Positions 21,185-40,639 of a stretch of 64,000 nucleotides of DNA are shown here, piece after piece. The stretch spans positions 1-64,000 of the forward strand of contig JAIOYP010000006.1 in NCBI GenBank assembly GCA_021741155.1, written 5' to 3'. Source of the stretch: Flavobacteriales bacterium. Lineage in GTDB: Bacteria > Bacteroidota > Bacteroidia > UBA10329. A program made the position numbers and the translations under genes. The notes under the pieces were generated by a model that was not told the DNA's origin, searched no databases, and was given only the letters and a program-made list of their open reading frames with translations. The stretch's first letter is position 1; each line of letters starts with the position of its first letter.

Positions 21185-21286
21185 ATCGGAGTGCCGCGCT
21201 AGGGGTGGGAGCGGCATCCTTTTTTGTTTTTCACAAAAAAGATATAGCGGACGACCCGACCCCGATTTTTCATCGGGGTAGCGCCC
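21185..21286 (+). repeat. Flavobacterial intergenic element, copy 1
   Basis: Contains GCGGCATCC, then an A/T tract, GATATAGCGGACGACCCGACC and a CCCCGAT/ATCGGGG hairpin, ending GCGCCC 8 bp from the TPR gene stop. The same ordered motifs occur inverted at 23125-23226. The motif order resembles a structured element seen repeatedly in Flavobacteriia intergenic regions, perhaps the Flavo-1 RNA family; this needs a covariance-model search. The rest of 21025-21293 holds only the R-M promoter. Confidence 0.6.
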
Positions 21287-21293
21287 AAAAAAA

Positions 21294-23114
21294 TCAATTC
21301 AAAAGATCGCCACGCAGGCTTCGGTAGCGCTTTCGGGCTTCGACCGTGAAGAGGCTGCCTGGGTAATTGAGCAGGAGTTCTTGGTAGTATTCCATGGCCT
21401 TGGAGCTGCTTTTGAGCTGGTTTTCGTAGAGTTGCGCCATGCGGTAAACGGCATCATCGGCCAGTAGGTCGGTTGGGTATTCCTTCCAGACGCGGTGGTA
21501 GTTTTCTTGCGCCAGTTGGTAGTTGCCTTCTTGCTCGGCAATTTGTGCGCGTTTGTAGAGAATATCGTCTTGCAGGCTGTGGCCGGGGTAGAATTCTTCG
21601 ATGCTATCGAGGGCAATTTTGGCGCTATCGAGCTTGTTTTGGTAGAGCAGAAGATCGGCCCGCGCGAAGGTGCTGAGGGCGGCATAGGTGGTGTCCATGA
21701 TGGAATTGTCGCCAATGAGCATGGCGAGGTAGAGCGCATCGTTGGCAATGAAATCGCTGGTGGCGGCCTTGAGGATGTTGAGCTGCGCCTGCGCCCATTC
21801 AAACTGGCCTGTGTAATAAGAAAGCTTGGCGTTTTTGAGCTTGGCAATGCGGCCAATATCATCGGTTTTGAACATCTTTTCGGCCTGCGAATAAAGCAGG
21901 GTGGTTTCCCAAATTTCGCCCGTAAATAGCAGCGCATCTGCCAACTGGATTTTGGCCATGGCGAGGTCTTTTTTCTGGATGCCGGGCAGTTCTAGCACCT
22001 CGTACAAAAGGTTGATTCCCTTATCCGAATTGTGGATGTAGAAGGTGTAAAGCTCGGCCAGATTCATCATCATTTGCGCCACGTTTCCGTTGCGGCCAAA
22101 CTCATCTAAGGTGGCAAGGAAGGTCTTTTCGAGGTCGAGCAATTGCTGATCGGTGTAGGAACCGCCAGCCACGGCTTTTTCGTAAAGCGTGTTCACCAGG
22201 TCCTTCTTGCAACTCATGTAATAGTAGCTTTCGCGCCCTTTTTTGATGACGTAATCATAGGCTTCAATCGCCAGATCATACGATTCGTTGGCGCGGCAGA
22301 TATGTGCCAATTGCACGATGCGCGCTCCGTCTTCCTTGTTTCTTCTGTCAAGCGCTTTTGCCTGCGCAAACGCCTGACTGAACTTCTTCTGCTGCTCAAA
22401 ATGCCAGATCAACAACTCAGGATAAATGTCCTTTTGCGGTTGTTTCTGAATACGCCCAATCACCGCTTCCTCAAAATATTCCTGCTTGGCGTTAGTTTGG
22501 TCGGCAATAAAAAGGTCCAACAGCTCGGTTCGCACCCGTGTAATCTGCGATTCGTCCTCCGCCAACGCGTTCATGTATTCCTCCACCGCCAAATCAAACT
22601 TGCCCAGCCTGTTGTAAACAGCCGCCAACTCAAACTGATAATTGTAAACGCCATTCAGCAGCTTGCGGCCCTTTTCGTAGGTACGAACCACCTGCTCAAA
22701 CTCGCCTTTATCCGCAAAAGCATCTGCCAGCGCATCAATCTGCCGCTGAAATGGCGGCAACTCGGCAATCGCCTTCGCATAGTCCTGCTCCGCCTTTTTC
22801 CCATCACCTGCCGCCTTGTGCACGTATCCCAAATACACGTAAAGCACAGGATTCCCTTCCTTCTTTATCCGCTTCTCAACCGTCTTCTCCGCTTCCGAAA
22901 AATTCTCCAGTTTCAGCAGACAATCCACATAATACTGGAAGAAAAACTCATCGTTATACTTCTTGTAAAGCCGCTGATAATAGACCTCCGCCTTCTCATA
23001 TTCGCCATTCTTGAAATACTGCGCGGCCAATTGCTCGTCCGTGTCCGTCTGCGCCAAAAGCAACAGCGGAGCAACCAAGAGCGCAACAATCGATATGTAG
23101 TTTTTCAATTTCAT
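21294..23114 (-). CDS. Secreted/periplasmic TPR-repeat protein
   Basis: Tetratricopeptide-repeat scaffold, 606 residues. A signal peptide (ISIVALLVAPLLLLAQ) is followed by TPRs through most of the chain, for example QYFKNGEYEKAEVYYQRLY (about 32-50), VVRTYEKGRKLLNGVYNYQF and NYQLAQENYHRVWKEYPTDL near the end, the last part resembling YfgC/BamD-like repeats. It probably acts in envelope protein complexes; the partner is unknown. The coding DNA is visibly richer in GC than neighbouring genes. Inverted copies of one intergenic element lie 8 bp beyond its stop and 11 bp before its start, an unusual tight bracket. Confidence 0.85.
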   Translation of the reverse strand: MKLKNYISIVALLVAPLLLLAQTDTDEQLAAQYFKNGEYEKAEVYYQRLYKKYNDEFFFQYYVDCLLKLENFSEAEKTVEKRIKKEGNPVLYVYLGYVHKAAGDGKKAEQDYAKAIAELPPFQRQIDALADAFADKGEFEQVVRTYEKGRKLLNGVYNYQFELAAVYNRLGKFDLAVEEYMNALAEDESQITRVRTELLDLFIADQTNAKQEYFEEAVIGRIQKQPQKDIYPELLIWHFEQQKKFSQAFAQAKALDRRNKEDGARIVQLAHICRANESYDLAIEAYDYVIKKGRESYYYMSCKKDLVNTLYEKAVAGGSYTDQQLLDLEKTFLATLDEFGRNGNVAQMMMNLAELYTFYIHNSDKGINLLYEVLELPGIQKKDLAMAKIQLADALLFTGEIWETTLLYSQAEKMFKTDDIGRIAKLKNAKLSYYTGQFEWAQAQLNILKAATSDFIANDALYLAMLIGDNSIMDTTYAALSTFARADLLLYQNKLDSAKIALDSIEEFYPGHSLQDDILYKRAQIAEQEGNYQLAQENYHRVWKEYPTDLLADDAVYRMAQLYENQLKSSSKAMEYYQELLLNYPGSLFTVEARKRYRSLRGDLLN

Positions 23115-23124
23115 TTCATCATTT

Positions 23125-23226
23125 GGGCGTGCCCCTACGGGTCGGGCTTTCCGCTGTATCTTTTTTCGGCCTCGTTTCGACTTCGCTCAACGAAGCCGAA
23201 AAAAGGATGCCGCTGCAATCCCTCAC
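23125..23226 (-). repeat. Flavobacterial intergenic element, copy 2 (inverted)
   Basis: Read on the minus strand: GAGGGATTGCAGCGGCATCC, a CGGCTTCGTT...GAGGCCG hairpin, AAAAAGATACAGCGGAAAGC, CCGACCCGTAGGGGCACGCCC. It shares its order of motifs with 21185-21286 in opposite orientation and lies immediately upstream of the TPR gene. Confidence 0.6.
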
Positions 23227-23267
23227 GCAAGCCATCTGCAAACATAGCTGCTGGCCGTAGACTCTAT

Positions 23268-34466: not shown

Positions 34467-35114
34467 CTATAAATGCAACCCACATTCCGTCTTCCCCGAA
34501 TTTCCCCATCGTCCGCTCCGGCCTTGTCCTTTGAAGGTGCATTGTGCACAACCAATAGAATTGTAGCCTACTTTTTCTAGCGGATGTTTCGGTAAATCAT
34601 TGTCTTCGAAATATGCCTTTTGCTGTTCGTTCGAGAGGTCAATGATAGGATGAAACTTCAACAGATTTCCCTTCTGTTCAAAGATCTTCCTCGATTTCCG
34701 TTCGGTATTCTGAAACCGCATCAAACCCGACATCCAAACCTCATAGTTTGGTTTTAGGTTGTCTAATGGTTCTACTTTATTGATGGAACAGCACAAATCG
34801 GGGTCTTTCGTCCACGTTTGGTCTTGGCGTGTAAAGGCATTTTTCCAATTTACCGGAACAACATTCTCAAGCTGAAGATTGAGCAGTTCGGTTAACCCAT
34901 TGCGGTATGCAATCGTCTCTGCAAAGTGATAGGTTGTATCAATGAAATGCACCTTTTGTTCTGGTTTTAGCTTCGAAACCAAGTGTAACAGAATAGCGGC
35001 AGAAGTTCCAAAAGAGGAAGTAAAAAGCACGGTATCGAAGTCGAGGTAAACGTTTAAAATCCGTTCCTCTACCGTCATCTTCTCGTATCGGCTATTTAGC
35101 TCCTGTAGGTTCAT
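34467..35114 (-). CDS. cysH: Adenylyl-sulfate (APS) reductase, CysH
   Basis: Reduces activated sulfate to sulfite. The 215 residues from ATG 35112-35114 contain the PP-loop-type SSFGTSAA motif, the catalytic C-terminal ECGLH, and two Cys pairs, DLCCSINKV and GCAQC. These four Cys bind a 4Fe-4S cluster in plant-type/assimilatory APS reductases and are absent from PAPS reductases, so APS is the likely substrate. The frame continues 23 codons upstream through a REP-like element that adds MTEAICLRRLPRSYLARNDE, discussed under findings. Electron donor is presumably thioredoxin. Confidence 0.92.
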   Translation of the reverse strand: MNLQELNSRYEKMTVEERILNVYLDFDTVLFTSSFGTSAAILLHLVSKLKPEQKVHFIDTTYHFAETIAYRNGLTELLNLQLENVVPVNWKNAFTRQDQTWTKDPDLCCSINKVEPLDNLKPNYEVWMSGLMRFQNTERKSRKIFEQKGNLLKFHPIIDLSNEQQKAYFEDNDLPKHPLEKVGYNSIGCAQCTFKGQGRSGRWGNSGKTECGLHL

Positions 35115-35125
35115 TTTACTATGCT

Positions 35126-35201
35126 CGTCATTGCGAGCGAGGTACGAGCGTGGCAATCTCCGCAAACAGATTGCTTCGGTCATGTTTCCCTCGAAATGAC
35201 G
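35126..35201 (-). repeat. REP-like palindromic element upstream of cysH
   Basis: 76 bp bounded by CGTCATT...AATGACG and containing GCGAGCGAGG and AGATTGCTTCGG. A second copy lies at 35849-35921. It ends 11 bp before the cysH ATG and is open in the cysH frame. Confidence 0.8.
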
Positions 35202-35237
35202 CGTTTAAGTGGGTTTTATGGCAATGCCGTGCTTGCT

Positions 35238-35834
35238 TCAATTTTCCCGTTTTGAATCAGATAGTAGGCCTGCCGTCAGTTCATTCATCCGTTTAACCTT
35301 GTACTCAAAGTCATCCTTGAGCGTAGAACGGAAAGCACGGAGGTTTCCAAGCAATTCATCCACATCATCAGGAATAACTTCTTCAAACAATTGCCGCAAG
35401 CGTTTGGCAAGTGTAGGCGATTTTCCATTGGTTGAAATGGCAATCTTCAAATCACCTTTTGTCACAATACCACCCAAGTAGAAATCGCACATGGCAGGCG
35501 TATCGGCCACGTTTGTGAGTATGCCTTTCTGCTTCGCAATAACTTTCACTTTCTCATGCAATGATGGATTATCAGTTGCTAGAATGAGCAATTGTTTCTC
35601 GTTCAAATCACTCTCTTCGAACGAGCGCTCAACTAACGAAACTGTTGGGAACTTGGAAGCCAGTTCCCGCACTTCGCTTCGGAATACTTTCGCCACAACC
35701 GTCACATTTGCATTTGGACTGCTTTTGAGCAGGAATGTGAGTTTTTCCAACGCCACATTTCCACCGCCTACAAGCAGTACTTCCAACGCATGGAGCTTTA
35801 GAAAAATAGGGAAGAGTTCGTTTTGACTTTGCAT
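35238..35834 (-). CDS. Precorrin-2 dehydrogenase (CysG N-terminal type)
   Basis: NAD-dependent oxidation of precorrin-2 to sirohydrochlorin, and possibly iron insertion, for siroheme. 198 residues from the ATG 35832-35834; NAD motif LLVGGGNVALEKLTFLL, then ILATDNPSLHEKV, and the family stretch NVADTPAMCDFYLGGIVTKG, with STNGKSPTLAKRLRQ. It pairs with the cobA/sumT gene just upstream, the split equivalent of enterobacterial CysG, and supplies the siroheme for the sulfite reductase of the same operon. As with cysH, the frame runs 23 codons upstream through a REP-like element. Confidence 0.9.
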   Translation of the reverse strand: MQSQNELFPIFLKLHALEVLLVGGGNVALEKLTFLLKSSPNANVTVVAKVFRSEVRELASKFPTVSLVERSFEESDLNEKQLLILATDNPSLHEKVKVIAKQKGILTNVADTPAMCDFYLGGIVTKGDLKIAISTNGKSPTLAKRLRQLFEEVIPDDVDELLGNLRAFRSTLKDDFEYKVKRMNELTAGLLSDSKREN

Positions 35835-35848
35835 ACGCTCATGTTTAG

Positions 35849-35921
35849 CGTCATTGCGAGCGAGGAACGAGCGCGGCAATCGGCAACGGATTGCTTCGGT
35901 CATACTTCCCTCGCAATGACG
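35849..35921 (-). repeat. REP-like palindromic element upstream of the precorrin-2 dehydrogenase gene
   Basis: 73 bp, CGTCATTGCGAGCGAGG ... TTGCTTCGG ... CGCAATGACG; same element as 35126-35201. It fills the gap between the cobA stop (35936) and the next ATG (35834). Confidence 0.8.
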
Positions 35922-35935
35922 CGGATTTTGATTCT

Positions 35936-36700
35936 CTACTTCTTCAAATAACTCGCCTCCACAAAAGCATGATTGAAATTCGGATGGTGCTTCACTACCT
36001 CACCCAAAACAATAATAGCAGGTGCACCAATCGCATTGTCAACAGCTAGTTGCTCAATGGTATCTACCGTTCCCAAAACAACCTTTTCGTTCTCCAATGA
36101 ACCATTCTGAATGATGGCTACTGGCATATCGTTCCGTCCACTGTTTCGGTATGTTTCTGCAATAAGTGCCAGTTTTTTCGTGCCCATTAGCACGATAACC
36201 GTGGCAGAACTTTGGGACGCTAAGGCTAGGTCTTTAGATAGTGCTAGGTCTTTGGTTGTTCCTGTAATTACCCAAAAGCTTTCGCTGTCGCCCCTACTTG
36301 TTACAGGAATTTTCTGCAAGCCAGGAACGCCAATAGAACTGCTAATTCCAGGTACCACTTCGGTTGGAATGTCGAATGCTTCCACGTGTTCAATTTCTTC
36401 TTGTCCACGACCAAAAACAAAGGGATCACCACCTTTCAATCGCACCACGTGTCCGTAATTCAAGGCGTATTCTACAATCAGTTTATTTATCTCATCCTGC
36501 GTGAAAGAGTGTTGTCCAGCACGCTTTCCGACAAATACTTTCGGAGCATTTGCGGGTGCGTAGTTCAATAAATCTGGATGCGTGAGTGCATCATACAATA
36601 CGGCATCGGCAGTTGCCAAAGCTTTTGCGCCTTTTACGCTTATCAAATCTGGGTCTCCTGGGCCTGCGCCTACGAGTGTTAGTTTGGGGTTATTTTTCAT
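35936..36700 (-). CDS. cobA: Uroporphyrinogen-III C-methyltransferase
   Basis: SAM-dependent double methylation of uroporphyrinogen III to precorrin-2, the branch step to siroheme. LTLVGAGPGDPDLISVKGAK, GGDPFVFGRGQEE and VVPGISSSIGVPG are the standard motifs; 254 residues, the single-domain SUMT form. Its start overlaps the sulfite reductase stop by 4 bp. With the precorrin-2 dehydrogenase it makes the prosthetic group of the sulfite reductase. The symbol sumT would fit equally. Confidence 0.95.
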   Translation of the reverse strand: MKNNPKLTLVGAGPGDPDLISVKGAKALATADAVLYDALTHPDLLNYAPANAPKVFVGKRAGQHSFTQDEINKLIVEYALNYGHVVRLKGGDPFVFGRGQEEIEHVEAFDIPTEVVPGISSSIGVPGLQKIPVTSRGDSESFWVITGTTKDLALSKDLALASQSSATVIVLMGTKKLALIAETYRNSGRNDMPVAIIQNGSLENEKVVLGTVDTIEQLAVDNAIGAPAIIVLGEVVKHHPNFNHAFVEASYLKK

Positions 36701-38799
36701 GAGTTCTTCTCGGCTTTAAGTTGTTCGTCTCTGAATATTTTGATGGTTTTAAGAAAGCTTTCCGCAGCCGCGAAATAGCTAAGAGCAAACTCCTCAGTTG
36801 CTTTATTCGATCGCATTTTTAGCACCGCTTCGGTGAATGAAACTTCAAATTGAAGTTTGCCCGTTTCTACAAACGTCTTATCGAAATCCTGTAGAATTCC
36901 AGCTTGTGTGTTGCAACGAACGTTCTCACCCAAAAGCAATCCTTTGGCGCCATTTACGTAGGCAGTATAGGTGTGATAAATGCCATCAGCAAAACGGCTC
37001 TGCTTGATGGCCTGGTCCGCCCAATCGAGTTTCTCATCCGCGTCATAGAATAAGGTTTGCACGAGGTCAATGATTACACCTGCGCATTCGCCCATACCAA
37101 TCTCAGGCTTGTACAATTCTTCCTTACCCCAATCGTAATAATCACTATCGTTCAAACTATCTAACTCTGCCAATGGTTTGAACAATTGGTAGAAATAATC
37201 AGTAGTTAGGCGGAGGTAATAATCGTTGAAATACTCGCCATCCAAACCATTTTCTTCGTAGTCCTTCAACACAAGTCGAAGCATGTCTGGTGTTCGTTTG
37301 GATGGAAGTTTGATGACTTTGTCTGCCACTGTTCCGTGGCCATTTCCGAGTGTGCCACCACCAAGCAAAACTTGCATTGCCGGCACAACTTTGCCGTCAT
37401 GTTTCATCGAGCTTCCATGAAAACCAATGTTCGCAATGCCGTGCTGTCCGCAAGAATTCATACATCCGCTAATCTTGATTTTGATATCGCGGTTGTGAAT
37501 GAGTTCTGGGAATTCTGAACGAATCACCTTCTCCAATTCCAAAGCCGTAGCTGTGCTGTTTGAGATTCCTAAGTTACACGTGTCTGTTCCCGGACAAGCA
37601 GTGATGTCTGCCACACTATCGAACCCAGGTTCTGCCAATCCGAGGTTATTCAAGCCTTCATACAAAGGCGAAAGCGCTTCTTGCGTTACGTAGCGCAACA
37701 AGTAACCTTGGTTGATGGTTACGCGAATGTCATCAGCAGCAAATTCTTTTACCACTTTGGCAAATGCCCGAGCAGTATCAGAGGAGATGTTTCCCAACGG
37801 AACGCGTACAAAAACGCCAAAGAAACCTTCTTGTTTCTGTTCAAATACGTTTGTTTTGACCCAATTGTCGTAGTGCTCGCGGTCTTTAATACGAACGGTG
37901 ACAACCGAATTCAATTTAGGTGGCTCAGCCGTGATAACTGCATTGCGATCAATCCAAACTTCTTGGTTTTTAAGTGAAGGATATTCGCCTTCAATTTGAT
38001 TCATCACTTCTTCCAAACCAACATCTTGAAGCAGGTATTTGAATCGCGCCTTGTTTCTGCGGTTTCGTTCTCCGTAACGGTCAAAATAGCGTAGTGCTGC
38101 TTCTGTAAATGGAATGATTTTTTCTTCTTCGAGAAATTCGAAAGCAGTTAGTGCTAAAAACGGTTGCGCTCCTAATCCACCACCAATCATCACTTTGAAA
38201 CCGCGTTTTTCTCCTTTCAAAACAGGAATAAAACCAAGGTCATGAATGAGCGTAAGCGAGGTGTCCTTTGCGCTAGATGCAAAGGCAATTTTGAACTTAC
38301 GCCCCATCTCTTGACAAACTGGGTTACGCAGAAAATACTCGAACATTTGATGCGCATAAGGCGATACATCGAACAATTCTTCGGGGTCAATTCCGGCCTT
38401 GTCGGAAGCAGTGATGTTACGAACCGTGTTTCCGCAAGCTTCCCGAATGGTGATTTTCGATTGCTCCAATTTGTGCCAGAGTTCGGGGGTTCGGTCCAAA
38501 CTCACATAATGGATTTGAATATCCTGACGTGTGGTGGCGTGGAGTGTGCTGCTTGCGTATTCATCAGAAATGTCTGCAATTTTAATCAGCTGTTCGCTCG
38601 TCAATCTTCCGTAAGGAATTTTGATTCGAATCATCTGCACACCTGGTTGCCGCTGTCCGTAGATTCCACGCGCCAAGCGCAGACTACGGAATTTGTCGTC
38701 ATCGACTTTGCCGTCTTTAAAAAGGGCAATCTTCTTTTCAAGATCGAGAATGTCCTTTTCTACGATGGGGTTTTCTAATTCTGTTCTAAAACTTTGCAT
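36697..38799 (-). CDS. Siroheme sulfite (nitrite) reductase with HEPN-like C-terminal domain
   Basis: Six-electron reduction of sulfite to sulfide (or nitrite to ammonia). Ferredoxin-like N domain (about 45-110) with ARGIYGQRQPGVQMIRIKIP; siroheme and 4Fe-4S ligands Cys402, Cys408, Cys446, Cys450 in ACPGTDTCNLG and SGCMNSCGQHG, the C-x5-C / C-x3-C pattern. Residues about 1-540 are the enzyme; about 570-700 form an added helical domain (LDWADQAIKQSRFADGIYHT, FALSYFAAAESFLKTIKIFR) like HEPN four-helix bundles. The operon (siroheme genes, cysH, hom) and the cysteine leader peptides argue for sulfite. The start is 86 bp below the proximal leader peptide and behind its terminator. Confidence 0.9.
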   Translation of the reverse strand: MQSFRTELENPIVEKDILDLEKKIALFKDGKVDDDKFRSLRLARGIYGQRQPGVQMIRIKIPYGRLTSEQLIKIADISDEYASSTLHATTRQDIQIHYVSLDRTPELWHKLEQSKITIREACGNTVRNITASDKAGIDPEELFDVSPYAHQMFEYFLRNPVCQEMGRKFKIAFASSAKDTSLTLIHDLGFIPVLKGEKRGFKVMIGGGLGAQPFLALTAFEFLEEEKIIPFTEAALRYFDRYGERNRRNKARFKYLLQDVGLEEVMNQIEGEYPSLKNQEVWIDRNAVITAEPPKLNSVVTVRIKDREHYDNWVKTNVFEQKQEGFFGVFVRVPLGNISSDTARAFAKVVKEFAADDIRVTINQGYLLRYVTQEALSPLYEGLNNLGLAEPGFDSVADITACPGTDTCNLGISNSTATALELEKVIRSEFPELIHNRDIKIKISGCMNSCGQHGIANIGFHGSSMKHDGKVVPAMQVLLGGGTLGNGHGTVADKVIKLPSKRTPDMLRLVLKDYEENGLDGEYFNDYYLRLTTDYFYQLFKPLAELDSLNDSDYYDWGKEELYKPEIGMGECAGVIIDLVQTLFYDADEKLDWADQAIKQSRFADGIYHTYTAYVNGAKGLLLGENVRCNTQAGILQDFDKTFVETGKLQFEVSFTEAVLKMRSNKATEEFALSYFAAAESFLKTIKIFRDEQLKAEKNS

Positions 38800-38826
38800 A
38801 TATCTGGGGTTTGTTTTTACTTCATA

Positions 38827-38862
38827 AAAAAAGCCCTTCCGCTTGTGGCAGAAGGGCTTTTA
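38827..38862 (-). terminator. Proximal attenuator terminator of the sulfite reductase operon
   Basis: On the minus strand AAAAGCCCTTC/GAAGGGCTTTT (11 bp) encloses TGCCACAAGCG and runs into a seven-T tract. It lies between the proximal cysteine leader peptide and the sulfite reductase ATG, 28 bp before the start. Confidence 0.85.
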
Positions 38863-38885
38863 CGACTAAAATGCGCATATCACCA

Positions 38886-38927
38886 CTACTCCCACCTTTC
38901 GGTAGACTTGCAGCAACAACACTTCAT
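38886..38927 (-). CDS. Cysteine-rich leader peptide, proximal (MKCCCCKSTERWE)
   Basis: A 13-codon ORF with ATG at 38925-38927 and TAG at 38886-38888 whose codons 3-6 are TGT TGT TGC TGC. Immediately after the Cys run, CTACC-GAAA-GGTGG can fold into a small GNRA-capped hairpin, and GTGG downstream of the stop is complementary to CCAC within the loop of the following terminator. Its place between a promoter and an intrinsic terminator is that of an amino-acid attenuation leader. Ribosome stalling when Cys-tRNA is scarce would favour read-through into sulfur assimilation genes. The peptide itself probably has no function. Confidence 0.75.
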   Translation of the reverse strand: MKCCCCKSTERWE

Positions 38928-38966
38928 TTTAATCCGTTCAACCATATTAACCATAATCATAATCAT

Positions 38967-38998
38967 AAAAAAAGCCCCTCAGATATCTGAGAGGCTTT
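38967..38998 (-). terminator. Distal attenuator terminator
   Basis: On the minus strand AAAGCCTCTCAGAT/ATCTGAGGGGCTTT pairs along 14 positions with one G-T wobble, followed by seven T. It lies between the distal cysteine leader peptide and the proximal one, so transcripts meet two terminators in series. ACAACA just before the stem is complementary to the TGTTGT of the distal Cys codons. Confidence 0.85.
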
Positions 38999-39032
38999 GT
39001 TGTTTCGTTTTTAAAAAATATCAATACAACAC

Positions 39033-39089
39033 TCAGCTTCTCATAGGAAATAGACAACAGCAGCAACATGCTGTGTTCATCATTTTCAT
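39033..39089 (-). CDS. Cysteine-rich leader peptide, distal (MKMMNTACCCCCLFPMRS)
   Basis: An 18-codon ORF (ATG 39087-39089, with further in-frame ATGs at 39083 and 39080; TGA 39033-39035) with five consecutive Cys codons TGT TGC TGC TGT TGT. It begins about 33 bp after a consensus promoter and is followed by an intrinsic terminator. The GCTGAG overlapping its stop codon is complementary to CTCAG of the terminator 5' arm, so a ribosome at the stop or stalled on Cys codons would alter the fold. Chance occurrence of five Cys codons here and four in the next leader is very unlikely. Confidence 0.75.
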   Translation of the reverse strand: MKMMNTACCCCCLFPMRS

Positions 39090-39121
39090 ATCGAATTGTG
39101 CGTTGGTCATTTTGATGGTGC

Positions 39122-39152
39122 CAAACCTAAGTCAAAAAAGGTTTGGTGCAAC
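39122..39152 (-). promoter_or_regulatory. Promoter of the cysteine-attenuated sulfite reductase operon
   Basis: On the minus strand GTTG (39149-39152), 19 bp, TAGGTTTG (39122-39129): a full -33/-7 match. It lies after the metX stop, giving a leader of about 300 nt with both leader peptides. CCAAACC/GGTTTGG also makes a 7-bp inverted repeat overlapping the box (39121-39146), possibly an operator. Confidence 0.6.
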
Positions 39153-39167
39153 ACGTGAAACTATTTT

Positions 39168-40187
39168 TTAATGTTGATGCCCTAAAAAGGTGGTGAGCAG
39201 ACGGTTGATTTTCTCACTCTCTACCAAAAATCCATCATGCCCAAAGGGAGATGAAATAATTTCAAATTGTGCGTTTGGAATGTTCTCAGCAATGAATTTC
39301 TGTTCGGCAACAGGACAAAGAATATCACTATCAACTCCGATAATCAATGTATTTGCGGTTATCTGGATTAGTGCGTTTTCAACTGATTTTCTTCCTCTTC
39401 CCAAGTGATGGCCATCCATTGCTTTACTGAGCAAATGATAACTCTGTGCGTTGAATCTTTTCGACAGTTTTTCACCTTGATAACGGATGTAGGAAGAGGC
39501 TTTATAGTCATCTAATTTCTCTTCGTTGTCCTCCTGCGTCTGCTTGAAAGCTTCGTAATTCCGATACGTCAGCATACCTATTCCGCGTGCAGCCTTCAGT
39601 CCGTTGGAACCAGCTTTTGCATCATCATCTTTCCAAGTTGTATCAGCTTCAATGGCCAATCGCTGCGCTTCATGAATGGCAATTTCCCAAGCCGAAGCTT
39701 TAGCACTCGTAACTAACAGACATAGGTTTTTGAAAAGGTCTTTATCAGAAATGGCCCATTCCATCAATTGATAACCGCCCATGCTACCACCCATTCCCAA
39801 TGCAATACGTTTTACTCCCAGTTGTGCTTGCAGCAATTGATGCGCTTTCACCATATCGCGAATGGTAATCATCGGAAAGGAATGGAAATACGGTTTGCCT
39901 GTTGCTGGGTTCTCTGTCAACGACCCAGAACTTCCATAACATGAACCCAGAATATTGGCACAAACGATGAAATACTTGCTTGGGTCGAATGGCCTTCTAT
40001 CTCCAAAAAGCTCACTCCACCAATCGGAAACATCCGAGTTTGCTGTGAGCGCATGGCACACCCAAATAACGTTGTCGCCAGCGGTATTCAATTCACCATA
40101 CGTATGGTACGCGATTTCTACTTTAGGCAGAATCGCACCACTTTCAAGCGGAAAAGGTTGGTTATGAATGTACTTTTGAAGGCCCAT
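39168..40187 (-). CDS. metX: Homoserine O-acetyltransferase
   Basis: Transfers an acetyl group from acetyl-CoA to homoserine, activating it for sulfhydrylation. Alpha/beta-hydrolase fold: nucleophile Ser135 in GMGGSMGGYQ, the catalytic Asp in GVDSDILCP and His in PFGHDGFLVES; ALTANSDVSDWW and GSCYGSSGSLTENPATGKPY are MetX signatures. The ATG at 40185-40187 gives 339 residues, a normal length. Divergent from an OsmC gene with 38 bp between starts. Its product is used by the MetZ-type enzyme encoded at 40748-41923. Succinyl instead of acetyl transfer cannot be fully excluded. Confidence 0.93.
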   Translation of the reverse strand: MGLQKYIHNQPFPLESGAILPKVEIAYHTYGELNTAGDNVIWVCHALTANSDVSDWWSELFGDRRPFDPSKYFIVCANILGSCYGSSGSLTENPATGKPYFHSFPMITIRDMVKAHQLLQAQLGVKRIALGMGGSMGGYQLMEWAISDKDLFKNLCLLVTSAKASAWEIAIHEAQRLAIEADTTWKDDDAKAGSNGLKAARGIGMLTYRNYEAFKQTQEDNEEKLDDYKASSYIRYQGEKLSKRFNAQSYHLLSKAMDGHHLGRGRKSVENALIQITANTLIIGVDSDILCPVAEQKFIAENIPNAQFEIISSPFGHDGFLVESEKINRLLTTFLGHQH

Positions 40188-40225
40188 ACTTACTACGGCA
40201 AATATCGCAACGGAAAACGGATAGG

Positions 40226-40639
40226 ATGAAAGTAACGCTGAAAAGACTGAATGATGATTACCACATGGAAGCCACCAACGCAACGGGCAATACCATTCAA
40301 ATGGATGGCTCGCCTGGTATTGGCGGACAAAACCTAGGTGCCCGTCCGATGGAAGTAGTGTTGATGTCGTTAGCTGGTTGTAGCAGCATTGATGTGATTT
40401 CCATCCTCAAGAAGATGAAGCAGGAAGTAACTGATTATGATGTGGAAGTAACAGCCGAGCGCAGAGACGAGATTCCATCCATCTTCACCAAAATTCACAT
40501 GAAATTCTTGGTTAAGGGAATTGACTTGGACGGGGAGAAGGTGAGACGTGCTGCTCAACTTTCTGCAGAGAAGTATTGTTCGGTTTCTAAGATTCTGGAA
40601 CCGACCGCTGAAATCACTTGGGATGTAGTTGTAGGTTGA
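40226..40639 (+). CDS. OsmC/Ohr family protein
   Basis: Small protein of the OsmC fold, usually a thiol-dependent organic hydroperoxide reductase; 137 residues. The two conserved cysteines are visible in MSLAGCSSIDVI and EKYCSVSK, the arrangement of the peroxidatic/resolving pair. GIGGQNLGARPMEVVLMSLA is characteristic of the YhfA/OsmC subgroup. It is divergent from metX and upstream of metZ. A link of thiol redox defence to sulfur amino acid supply is plausible but inferred. Confidence 0.88.
   Translation: MKVTLKRLNDDYHMEATNATGNTIQMDGSPGIGGQNLGARPMEVVLMSLAGCSSIDVISILKKMKQEVTDYDVEVTAERRDEIPSIFTKIHMKFLVKGIDLDGEKVRRAAQLSAEKYCSVSKILEPTAEITWDVVVG

Follow-up and report, generated by a model that had tools for sequence, protein, structure and literature searches.

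Does the leader of a sulfite reductase (SIR) operon in a Flavobacteriales bacterium contain two cysteine-responsive transcription attenuators, one behind the other? The question was raised by an initial annotation of the 64,000-nucleotide stretch of DNA analysed here (the window; genome G000), in which two short ORFs with runs of Cys codons, each followed by a terminator, were noticed upstream of SIR. We consider it highly probable that these two units are ribosome-mediated transcription attenuators acting in series on one leader transcript, a function that is inferred from the sequence.

Organization and conservation of the leader region

On the minus strand, the region between a metX-like gene and SIR contains, in this order, a promoter, an ORF with five Cys codons, terminator 1, an ORF with four Cys codons, and terminator 2. 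The metX-like gene (39168-40283, minus strand) lies directly upstream; Pfam assigned it only to Abhydrolase_1, and MetX is a name that we assume for it. SIR, the regulated gene (36697-38799, Pfam NIR_SIR), is accompanied downstream on the same strand by further sulfur genes identified with Pfam, which encode a tetrapyrrole methylase (35936-36700), a siroheme-synthase-like protein (35238-35903), and PAPS reductase (34467-35183). A repeat element, GTCATTGCGAG...GCAATC, occurs twice between operon genes, at 35121-35203 and 35848-35926. The pieces of this repeat are 90-94% identical, also occur inverted, and supply similar N-terminal extensions (MTEAI..RLPRS.LARND) to the ORFs starting at 35183 and 35903. 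Elsewhere in the window, two Flavo-1 RNA motifs scored above threshold (23136-23237, minus strand; 21193-21265, plus strand), flanking an ORF at 21294-23114 in opposite orientations.

The promoter consists of TTG (39149-39151, minus strand), a 19-nt spacer, and TAGGTTTG (39122-39129). It matches exactly the rule TTG-N17..23-TAnnTTTG, which we take to be the Bacteroidota -33/-7 promoter consensus; the consensus promoter annotated at 39122-39152 of the minus strand was thus found in place. A sigma-70 promoter scan missed the site at 39122-39151 and returned 2 sites, compared with 1.6 expected. Leader ORF 1, MTNAQFDMKMMNTACCCCCLFPMRS, was detected by ORF scan at 39033-39110 (minus strand) and is kept in the relatives G005 and G002. 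It had been described as an 18-codon ORF with five Cys codons at 39033-39089, which is correct for the inner ATG at 39089, a possible start; however, the ORF can begin at the ATG at 39110 and then has 25 codons, seven more than the inner version. This first ATG sits a few nucleotides past the inferred start point of transcription, so that unit 1 might be translated from a nearly leaderless start, whereas unit 2 is internal on the presumed leader transcript. Bacteroidota mRNAs generally lack Shine-Dalgarno sequences. In unit 1 the Cys run (TGT TGC TGC TGT TGT) occupies 39054-39068, and the antiterminator 5′ arm predicted by folding (39026-39043) overlaps the TGA stop (39033-39035). Terminator 1, an intrinsic terminator with a U tract at 38967-38998, was obtained by both consensus scan and folding (-18.3 kcal/mol) with a 12-bp stem at 38971-38998, in agreement with the hairpin and T run originally annotated there.

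Leader ORF 2, MKCCCCKSTERWE, was detected by ORF scan at 38886-38927 (minus strand), exactly as annotated, and is conserved in the relatives. Its four Cys codons (TGT TGT TGC TGC, 38910-38921) specify Cys in all three species, and its predicted antiterminator 5′ arm, GGTGGGAG (38889-38896), lies within the ORF. Terminator 2, with its U tract, was located by folding at 38826-38861 (-21.9 kcal/mol), where the initial annotation had put a second terminator (38827-38862). It rests on folding only and is absent from the consensus scan, which does list terminator 1; the scan probably missed it because most of the T run is paired into the stem. No Rfam family reached its gathering score in the leader region, and Phe_leader (RF01859) scored 31.1 bits against a gathering threshold of 55.

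When both strands of the whole window were scanned for ORFs of at most 60 codons in which Cys makes up four or more of six residues, ORF 1 and ORF 2 were the only ones. The genome contains 68 matches to TGYTGYTGYTGY, three of them at the leader locus. The remaining 65 are covered by 56 partly overlapping loci containing 18 Cys-dense short ORFs, and none of these 18 had a terminator within 140 nt downstream.

Searches at the genus, family, and order levels returned the identical nine genomes, among which a full SIR besides that of G000 was found only in G005 (89% identity) and G002 (87% identity); G008 has a SIR fragment, and five genomes have no SIR. The exact architecture of the window is supported by these two relatives only (three species in total). 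G005 and G002 each retain two ORFs with four Cys codons, two terminators, and a promoter of the same kind at the equivalent place (TACATTTG). An in-frame ATG occupies the position of the 39110 start of ORF 1 in both, and the start context of ORF 2, AxTAAAATGA, is conserved. Loss of the Cys runs with retention of the hairpins would have refuted the annotated attenuators; both runs and both hairpins are retained in the two full-SIR relatives. In G005 and G002, Met takes the place of the first Cys in the unit 1 run; the other eight Cys codons (four per unit), present in all three species, vary only in their third base. As a comparison of sequences, this is indicative of selection for the amino acid cysteine.

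On the opposite strand, a 125-codon ORF (38794-39171, plus strand) was weighed as a possible gene and rejected, as the longest antisense open stretches of the relatives have only 51 and 74 codons. In G008 (locus L004), a single Cys unit (CCTCC) with a perfect nine-pair antiterminator was found. The SIR match behind this intact-looking leader covers just 101 residues and contains two in-frame TAG codons; either the gene has decayed, or another gene is now under the leader.

Predicted folding with stalled and terminating ribosomes

Antiterminator formation was predicted with a simple folding model in which the folded transcript ended with the 5′ arm of the terminator and no pairing was allowed within the ribosome footprint, which began 15 nt ahead of the first base of the A-site codon and ran to 12 nt from it. 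Units from the class-wide set described below were included, and the tests on 46 units omit unit 2 of locus L090, which has masked letters. In downstream-only folding, the antiterminator probability was 0.76 with the ribosome on the last Cys codon versus 0.20 with the ribosome at the stop codon. All 46 units differed by more than 0.2, compared with a mean of 16.4 and a maximum of 24 of 46 in 20 shuffles, in which the probabilities were 0.45 (stall) and 0.31 (stop). Unit 1 of the window gave 0.72 on the last Cys codon and 0.04 at the stop, and unit 2 gave 0.76 and 0.40, respectively. The stall/stop difference of unit 1 was seen in all three species of the genus. The antiterminator of unit 2 was clearest in L002 and L003, and its pairing in G000 depends on which Cys codon the ribosome is stalled on.

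When pairing across the ribosome was permitted, the probabilities were 0.76 (stall) versus 0.47 (stop) for the 46 units; 29 units differed by more than 0.2, and one was reversed. Shuffled spacers gave 0.48 versus 0.41 under this variant, with 11.5 of 46 units differing. With longer upstream sequence, 26 of 47 units differed by more than 0.2 as expected and one of 47 was reversed. Unit 2 of the window did not discriminate when pairing across the ribosome was permitted (0.78 stall, 0.78 stop). At locus L050 (-242..-152), the antiterminator arm pairs with the terminator arm over 14 pairs and the same variant gave 1.00 in both states; this leader looks differently built.

With the exception of about five of the 47 units, full-length equilibrium folds formed the terminator about equally in the stalled and stopped states; the switch, if it operates, must therefore be kinetic. 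As the ribosome was advanced, the antiterminator probability fell from 0.75 on the last Cys codon (46 units) to 0.29 five codons later (33 units still inside the ORF), compared with 0.48 to 0.44 in shuffles. The Cys run is therefore predicted to hold a stalled ribosome at the point at which the antiterminator is only just left free.

On average, the antiterminators also fit their own terminators. The segment 12-42 nt past the last Cys codon paired with its own terminator arm at a mean of -13.6 kcal/mol versus -9.25 kcal/mol (sd 0.38) with permuted arms, and none of 5000 permutations, which disregard relatedness, was as good. Ranked against the arms of other families, the own arm was among the best tenth in 28 of 47 units and the best quarter in 36, leaving 11 outside the best quarter; four own arms (L023, L028, L051 unit 1, and L059) paired worse than the mean foreign arm. 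Covariation was examined in an alignment of 12 units picked by hand from the 47 (ten second units and two single units; L051 is partly misaligned). The antiterminator helix was paired in 84.5% of cells and the terminator in 98.1%. Double changes in the antiterminator were found in four cells versus 1.2 in shuffles (3 of 500 as high), comprising an A-U to G-C change in three of the 12 units at one pair and a G-C to A-U change in one of 12 at another. Two of five covariation measures were not above shuffles, namely double-change pairs (89/500) and pair types (494/500).

The initial annotation had named two pairs of complementary segments in support of alternative folds. TGTTGT with ACAACA does extend the unit 1 antiterminator in this genome, and the extension is not conserved in G005 and G002. 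GCTGAG with CTCAG, however, is not the predicted antiterminator, in which TGAGA.GCT (39035-39043) is base-paired to the terminator 1 5′ arm.

Cysteine leaders upstream of sulfite reductase across the class

The class was searched in 395 genomes, 105 of which had a match, and upstream DNA was analysed for 91 SIR loci. Fragments without an N-terminus were left out, as were weak partial matches and one that lay at the edge of a contig (G382), and a phylum-wide search contributed no upstream regions. An ORF with at least four Cys in six residues was present within 450 nt upstream at 18 of 91 loci, compared with none on the reverse strand and a mean of 0.1 in shuffles (n = 20); with at least three in six, the numbers were 31, 1, and 1.55. 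Cys was the commonest clustered residue upstream of SIR (22 ORFs), followed by Leu (seven). The first detection rule used Cys only and was later widened to Cys and Met, and one ORF at L044 was added by hand. Under the Cys/Met rule within 750 nt, a leader was found at 36 of 91 loci in 17 of 27 families and was not found at the other 55. An intrinsic terminator followed within 90 nt downstream of 47 of the 50 Cys(-Met) ORFs in this set (the hand-added one included); none was detected behind the first units of L054 and L075 or behind L084, and these three were excluded from folding. Leaders were found at none of 30 loci where a same-strand gene is closer than 150 nt, at 30 of 50 where it is further away, and at six of 11 where none was seen.

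A second set of 80 named loci contained such an ORF in 29 cases, 20 of them with a terminator, including Pedobacter, Mucilaginibacter, Chitinophaga, Parapedobacter, and Reichenbachiella agariperforans. The named loci partly duplicate the 91 (L159 and L022 carry the same leader), and so the two sets were not summed; the only tandem among the 80 is apparently on the same contig as L022. In Pontibacter and Botryobacter, short ORFs ending in five to six Cys codons were observed upstream of SIR (L092, -466..-358; L097, -518..-404; L098, -500..-392; L108, -367..-253) without a typical terminator downstream, the lone exception being a weak, atypical hairpin in P. ummariensis (L097). They are perhaps another kind of leader.

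Outside the Cys/Met cluster, the leader peptides vary between families. Met enrichment was retested on units chosen by Cys only because the detection rule had included Met. In these 41 units, Met accounted for 99 of 332 non-Cys residues within three residues of a Cys versus 25 of 512 elsewhere. Sulfide feeds both Cys and Met in these bacteria, and the leaders may therefore read both; that they read Cys and Met together is probable.

Full tandems, with two units that each have their own terminator, were found at 12 of 91 loci in eight families: the three species of this genus and L020, L022, L025, L036, L044, L051, L063, L080, and L090 in seven other families. L054 and L075 have two ORFs each, with the first terminator not detected. 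At 21 of the 36 leader loci, a single leader ORF is followed by a terminator. An exact promoter match precedes unit 1 at 11 of 12 tandem loci, and no match to the rule TTG-N17..23-TAnnTTTG, which is insensitive, lies between terminator 1 and the second Cys run at any of the 12. At the 23 other leader loci, the rule gave seven exact matches, two with one mismatch, and nothing at 14; since it is blind to many promoters, the absence of a match between the units is only weak evidence. The gap between terminator 1 and the second Cys run is 43-49 nt in this genus, which leaves little room for a promoter. Because promoter matches precede unit 1 in 11 tandems and separate the units in none, the tandem units most likely stand in series on one leader transcript, an arrangement proposed without transcript data. 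The two units are not copies. Between the last Cys codon and the stop codon lie 3-18 nt in eleven of the first units, whereas every one of the twelve second units has 21-51 nt there. The second tail is the longer of the two in 11 tandems, and in the remaining one (L090) the tails are equal. The initial annotation contained neither these differing tails, nor the Met residues near Cys in the relatives' leaders, nor the class-wide design.

Mechanism, alternatives, and relation to known systems

The leader has a short ORF with a run of end-product codons ahead of a biosynthetic operon and, before the structural gene is reached, an intrinsic terminator, as expected of an attenuator; an antiterminator freed by stalling and blocked at the stop is predicted by folding, unit 2 failing to discriminate in the variant that permits pairing across the ribosome. 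RNA polymerase would initiate at about 39116 with a ribosome trailing on ORF 1. If Cys-tRNA were scarce, the ribosome would stall on the Cys run, the segment just 3′ of it would pair with the terminator 1 5′ arm, and transcription would continue past the site; if Cys-tRNA were plentiful, the ribosome at the stop would mask this segment and terminator 1 would fold. Polymerases past terminator 1 would be retested at ORF 2 and terminator 2, and the operon would be transcribed only if both ribosomes stalled. The position of the start site, the translation of both ORFs, ribosome stalling, cysteine as the signal, and this series (AND) behaviour are inferred, with no expression, ribosome, or term-seq data. 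What can be read from the DNA itself is the anatomy with a single recognisable promoter, its conservation, the exclusively silent change of the shared Cys codons, the mutually exclusive predicted folds, which lie at ribosome distance, and the antiterminator fit. The attenuation logic of the initial annotation is supported by the conserved runs and hairpins, the recurrence across families, and the antiterminators that fit their own terminators.

It could be argued that only one unit works, terminator 1 being the transcript end of metX, the downstream unit regulating SIR, and the upstream ORF a relic. Terminator 1 does lie 170 nt past metX, where the scan adds only two weak hairpins inside ORF 1 on the same strand, and single leaders with one terminator are frequent (21/36). 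We nevertheless regard this as unlikely, given the exact promoter match between metX and ORF 1 in all three species, the merely silent variation of the shared unit 1 Cys codons, the stall/stop difference of unit 1 in each species, and the tandems with their own first terminator in seven other families. That the short ORFs act by another route, such as Rho-dependent termination or translational coupling, has been proposed for mycobacterial polycysteine ORFs, and those of the Mycobacterium cys operons were reported without conserved terminators (PMC1262725, available part of the paper). Three Cys ORFs of the class set likewise lack a detected terminator, as do the Pontibacter and Botryobacter ORFs apart from the weak hairpin in P. 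ummariensis. Against such a route, which we would give only a small chance, stand the intrinsic terminators behind 47 of 50 class-set Cys ORFs and the antiterminators fitting them.

Instead of serving as sensors, the leader peptides could have a function of their own as small proteins that bind, for example, metals or thiols, and Cys-dense short peptides can generally bind metals. However, the leader peptide sequences vary between families outside the Cys/Met cluster, and the codons past it share positions with antiterminator arms, which fit the terminators they belong to; we find this reading very hard to sustain. Nor does coincidence suffice: short ORFs and TGTTGT repeats are common, and there are 18 other Cys-dense short ORFs in the genome, but none of those has a terminator, the reverse strand and shuffles yield almost none upstream of SIR, and the arm-permutation and stall/stop tests already contradict chance ORFs ahead of ordinary terminators, whose probability we consider negligible. 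Two attenuators in series thus remain our preferred reading. We also lean, by a little, towards a broader one: a widespread, repeatedly tandem Cys and Met attenuator class on Bacteroidia SIR operons, in which the non-copy units would be two stages that differ in basal leak and in starvation threshold for the same signal and together make a steep switch.

Classical leader-peptide attenuators are found in the trp, his, leu, thr, phe, and ilv operons. The SIR leaders resemble these in having a short ORF with end-product codons, a predicted exclusive antiterminator and terminator, and ribosome position as the putative sensor, but they differ in using cysteine (with methionine), in belonging to Bacteroidota, and in comprising two complete serial units. 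Polycysteine short ORFs ahead of mycobacterial cys operons reportedly mediate attenuation by cysteine supply (Canestrari et al., 2020). Those predicted earlier share the Cys-codon runs ahead of sulfur assimilation genes; however, they are leaderless and, according to PMC1262725, without conserved terminator hairpins, whereas the SIR leaders, in another phylum, have strong intrinsic terminators and fitting antiterminators and do not conform to that type. The uORFC-8-2 motif before Rhodobacterales cysS likewise combines Cys codons in a short ORF with an intrinsic terminator, but it has two Cys codons, belongs to Alphaproteobacteria, and is not described as tandem in the part of the source seen (PMC8632094); the downstream gene here is SIR, with runs of five and four Cys codons, although the motif model itself was not used.

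Two short ORFs in one leader also control transcription of the Salmonella mgtCBR operon, termed a singular example; they sense two different signals, ATP and proline, and are contrasted with a leader that has two intrinsic terminators (PMC3641672, in part), whereas the SIR leader has Cys in both ORFs and a terminator for each. The tandem riboswitches of Bacillus clausii metE also combine two sensors and two intrinsic terminators in a single leader before a sulfur gene, but with metabolite-binding RNAs for two ligands and no leader peptide, according to the same excerpt (PMC3641672). Within the phylum, leader-peptide attenuation of amino acid operons has been inferred in Flavobacterium psychrophilum, with pheA, hisG, and others named (PMC9723704), and a leader-peptide-like short ORF at BT_4401 of Bacteroides thetaiotaomicron (PMC7366714); the passages available name no cysteine, sulfite reductase, or tandem. 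A 2010 survey, seen in excerpt, added Firmicutes to leader-peptide systems previously recorded only in Proteobacteria and Actinobacteria (PMC2965389). Among the literature matches listed, most subscription papers being outside the scope, neither a leader with Cys codons nor a tandem reading one signal twice was seen for Bacteroidota.

We know of no described precedent for attenuators of the same amino acid in series, and to our knowledge little is known of assimilatory sulfur control in Bacteroidota. The proposal makes several questions testable: whether a series is steeper or tighter than a single unit, whether Met is read with Cys, and whether Bacteroidota couple their polymerase to the ribosome. 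Pedobacter, Mucilaginibacter, Chitinophaga, and Reichenbachiella, which are single-unit genera, are possible test hosts. If the proposal is true, translation would closely follow transcription in Bacteroidota, and the cysteine attenuator, found at 36 of the 91 loci sampled (17 of 27 families), would be a main mode of assimilatory sulfur control in this phylum.
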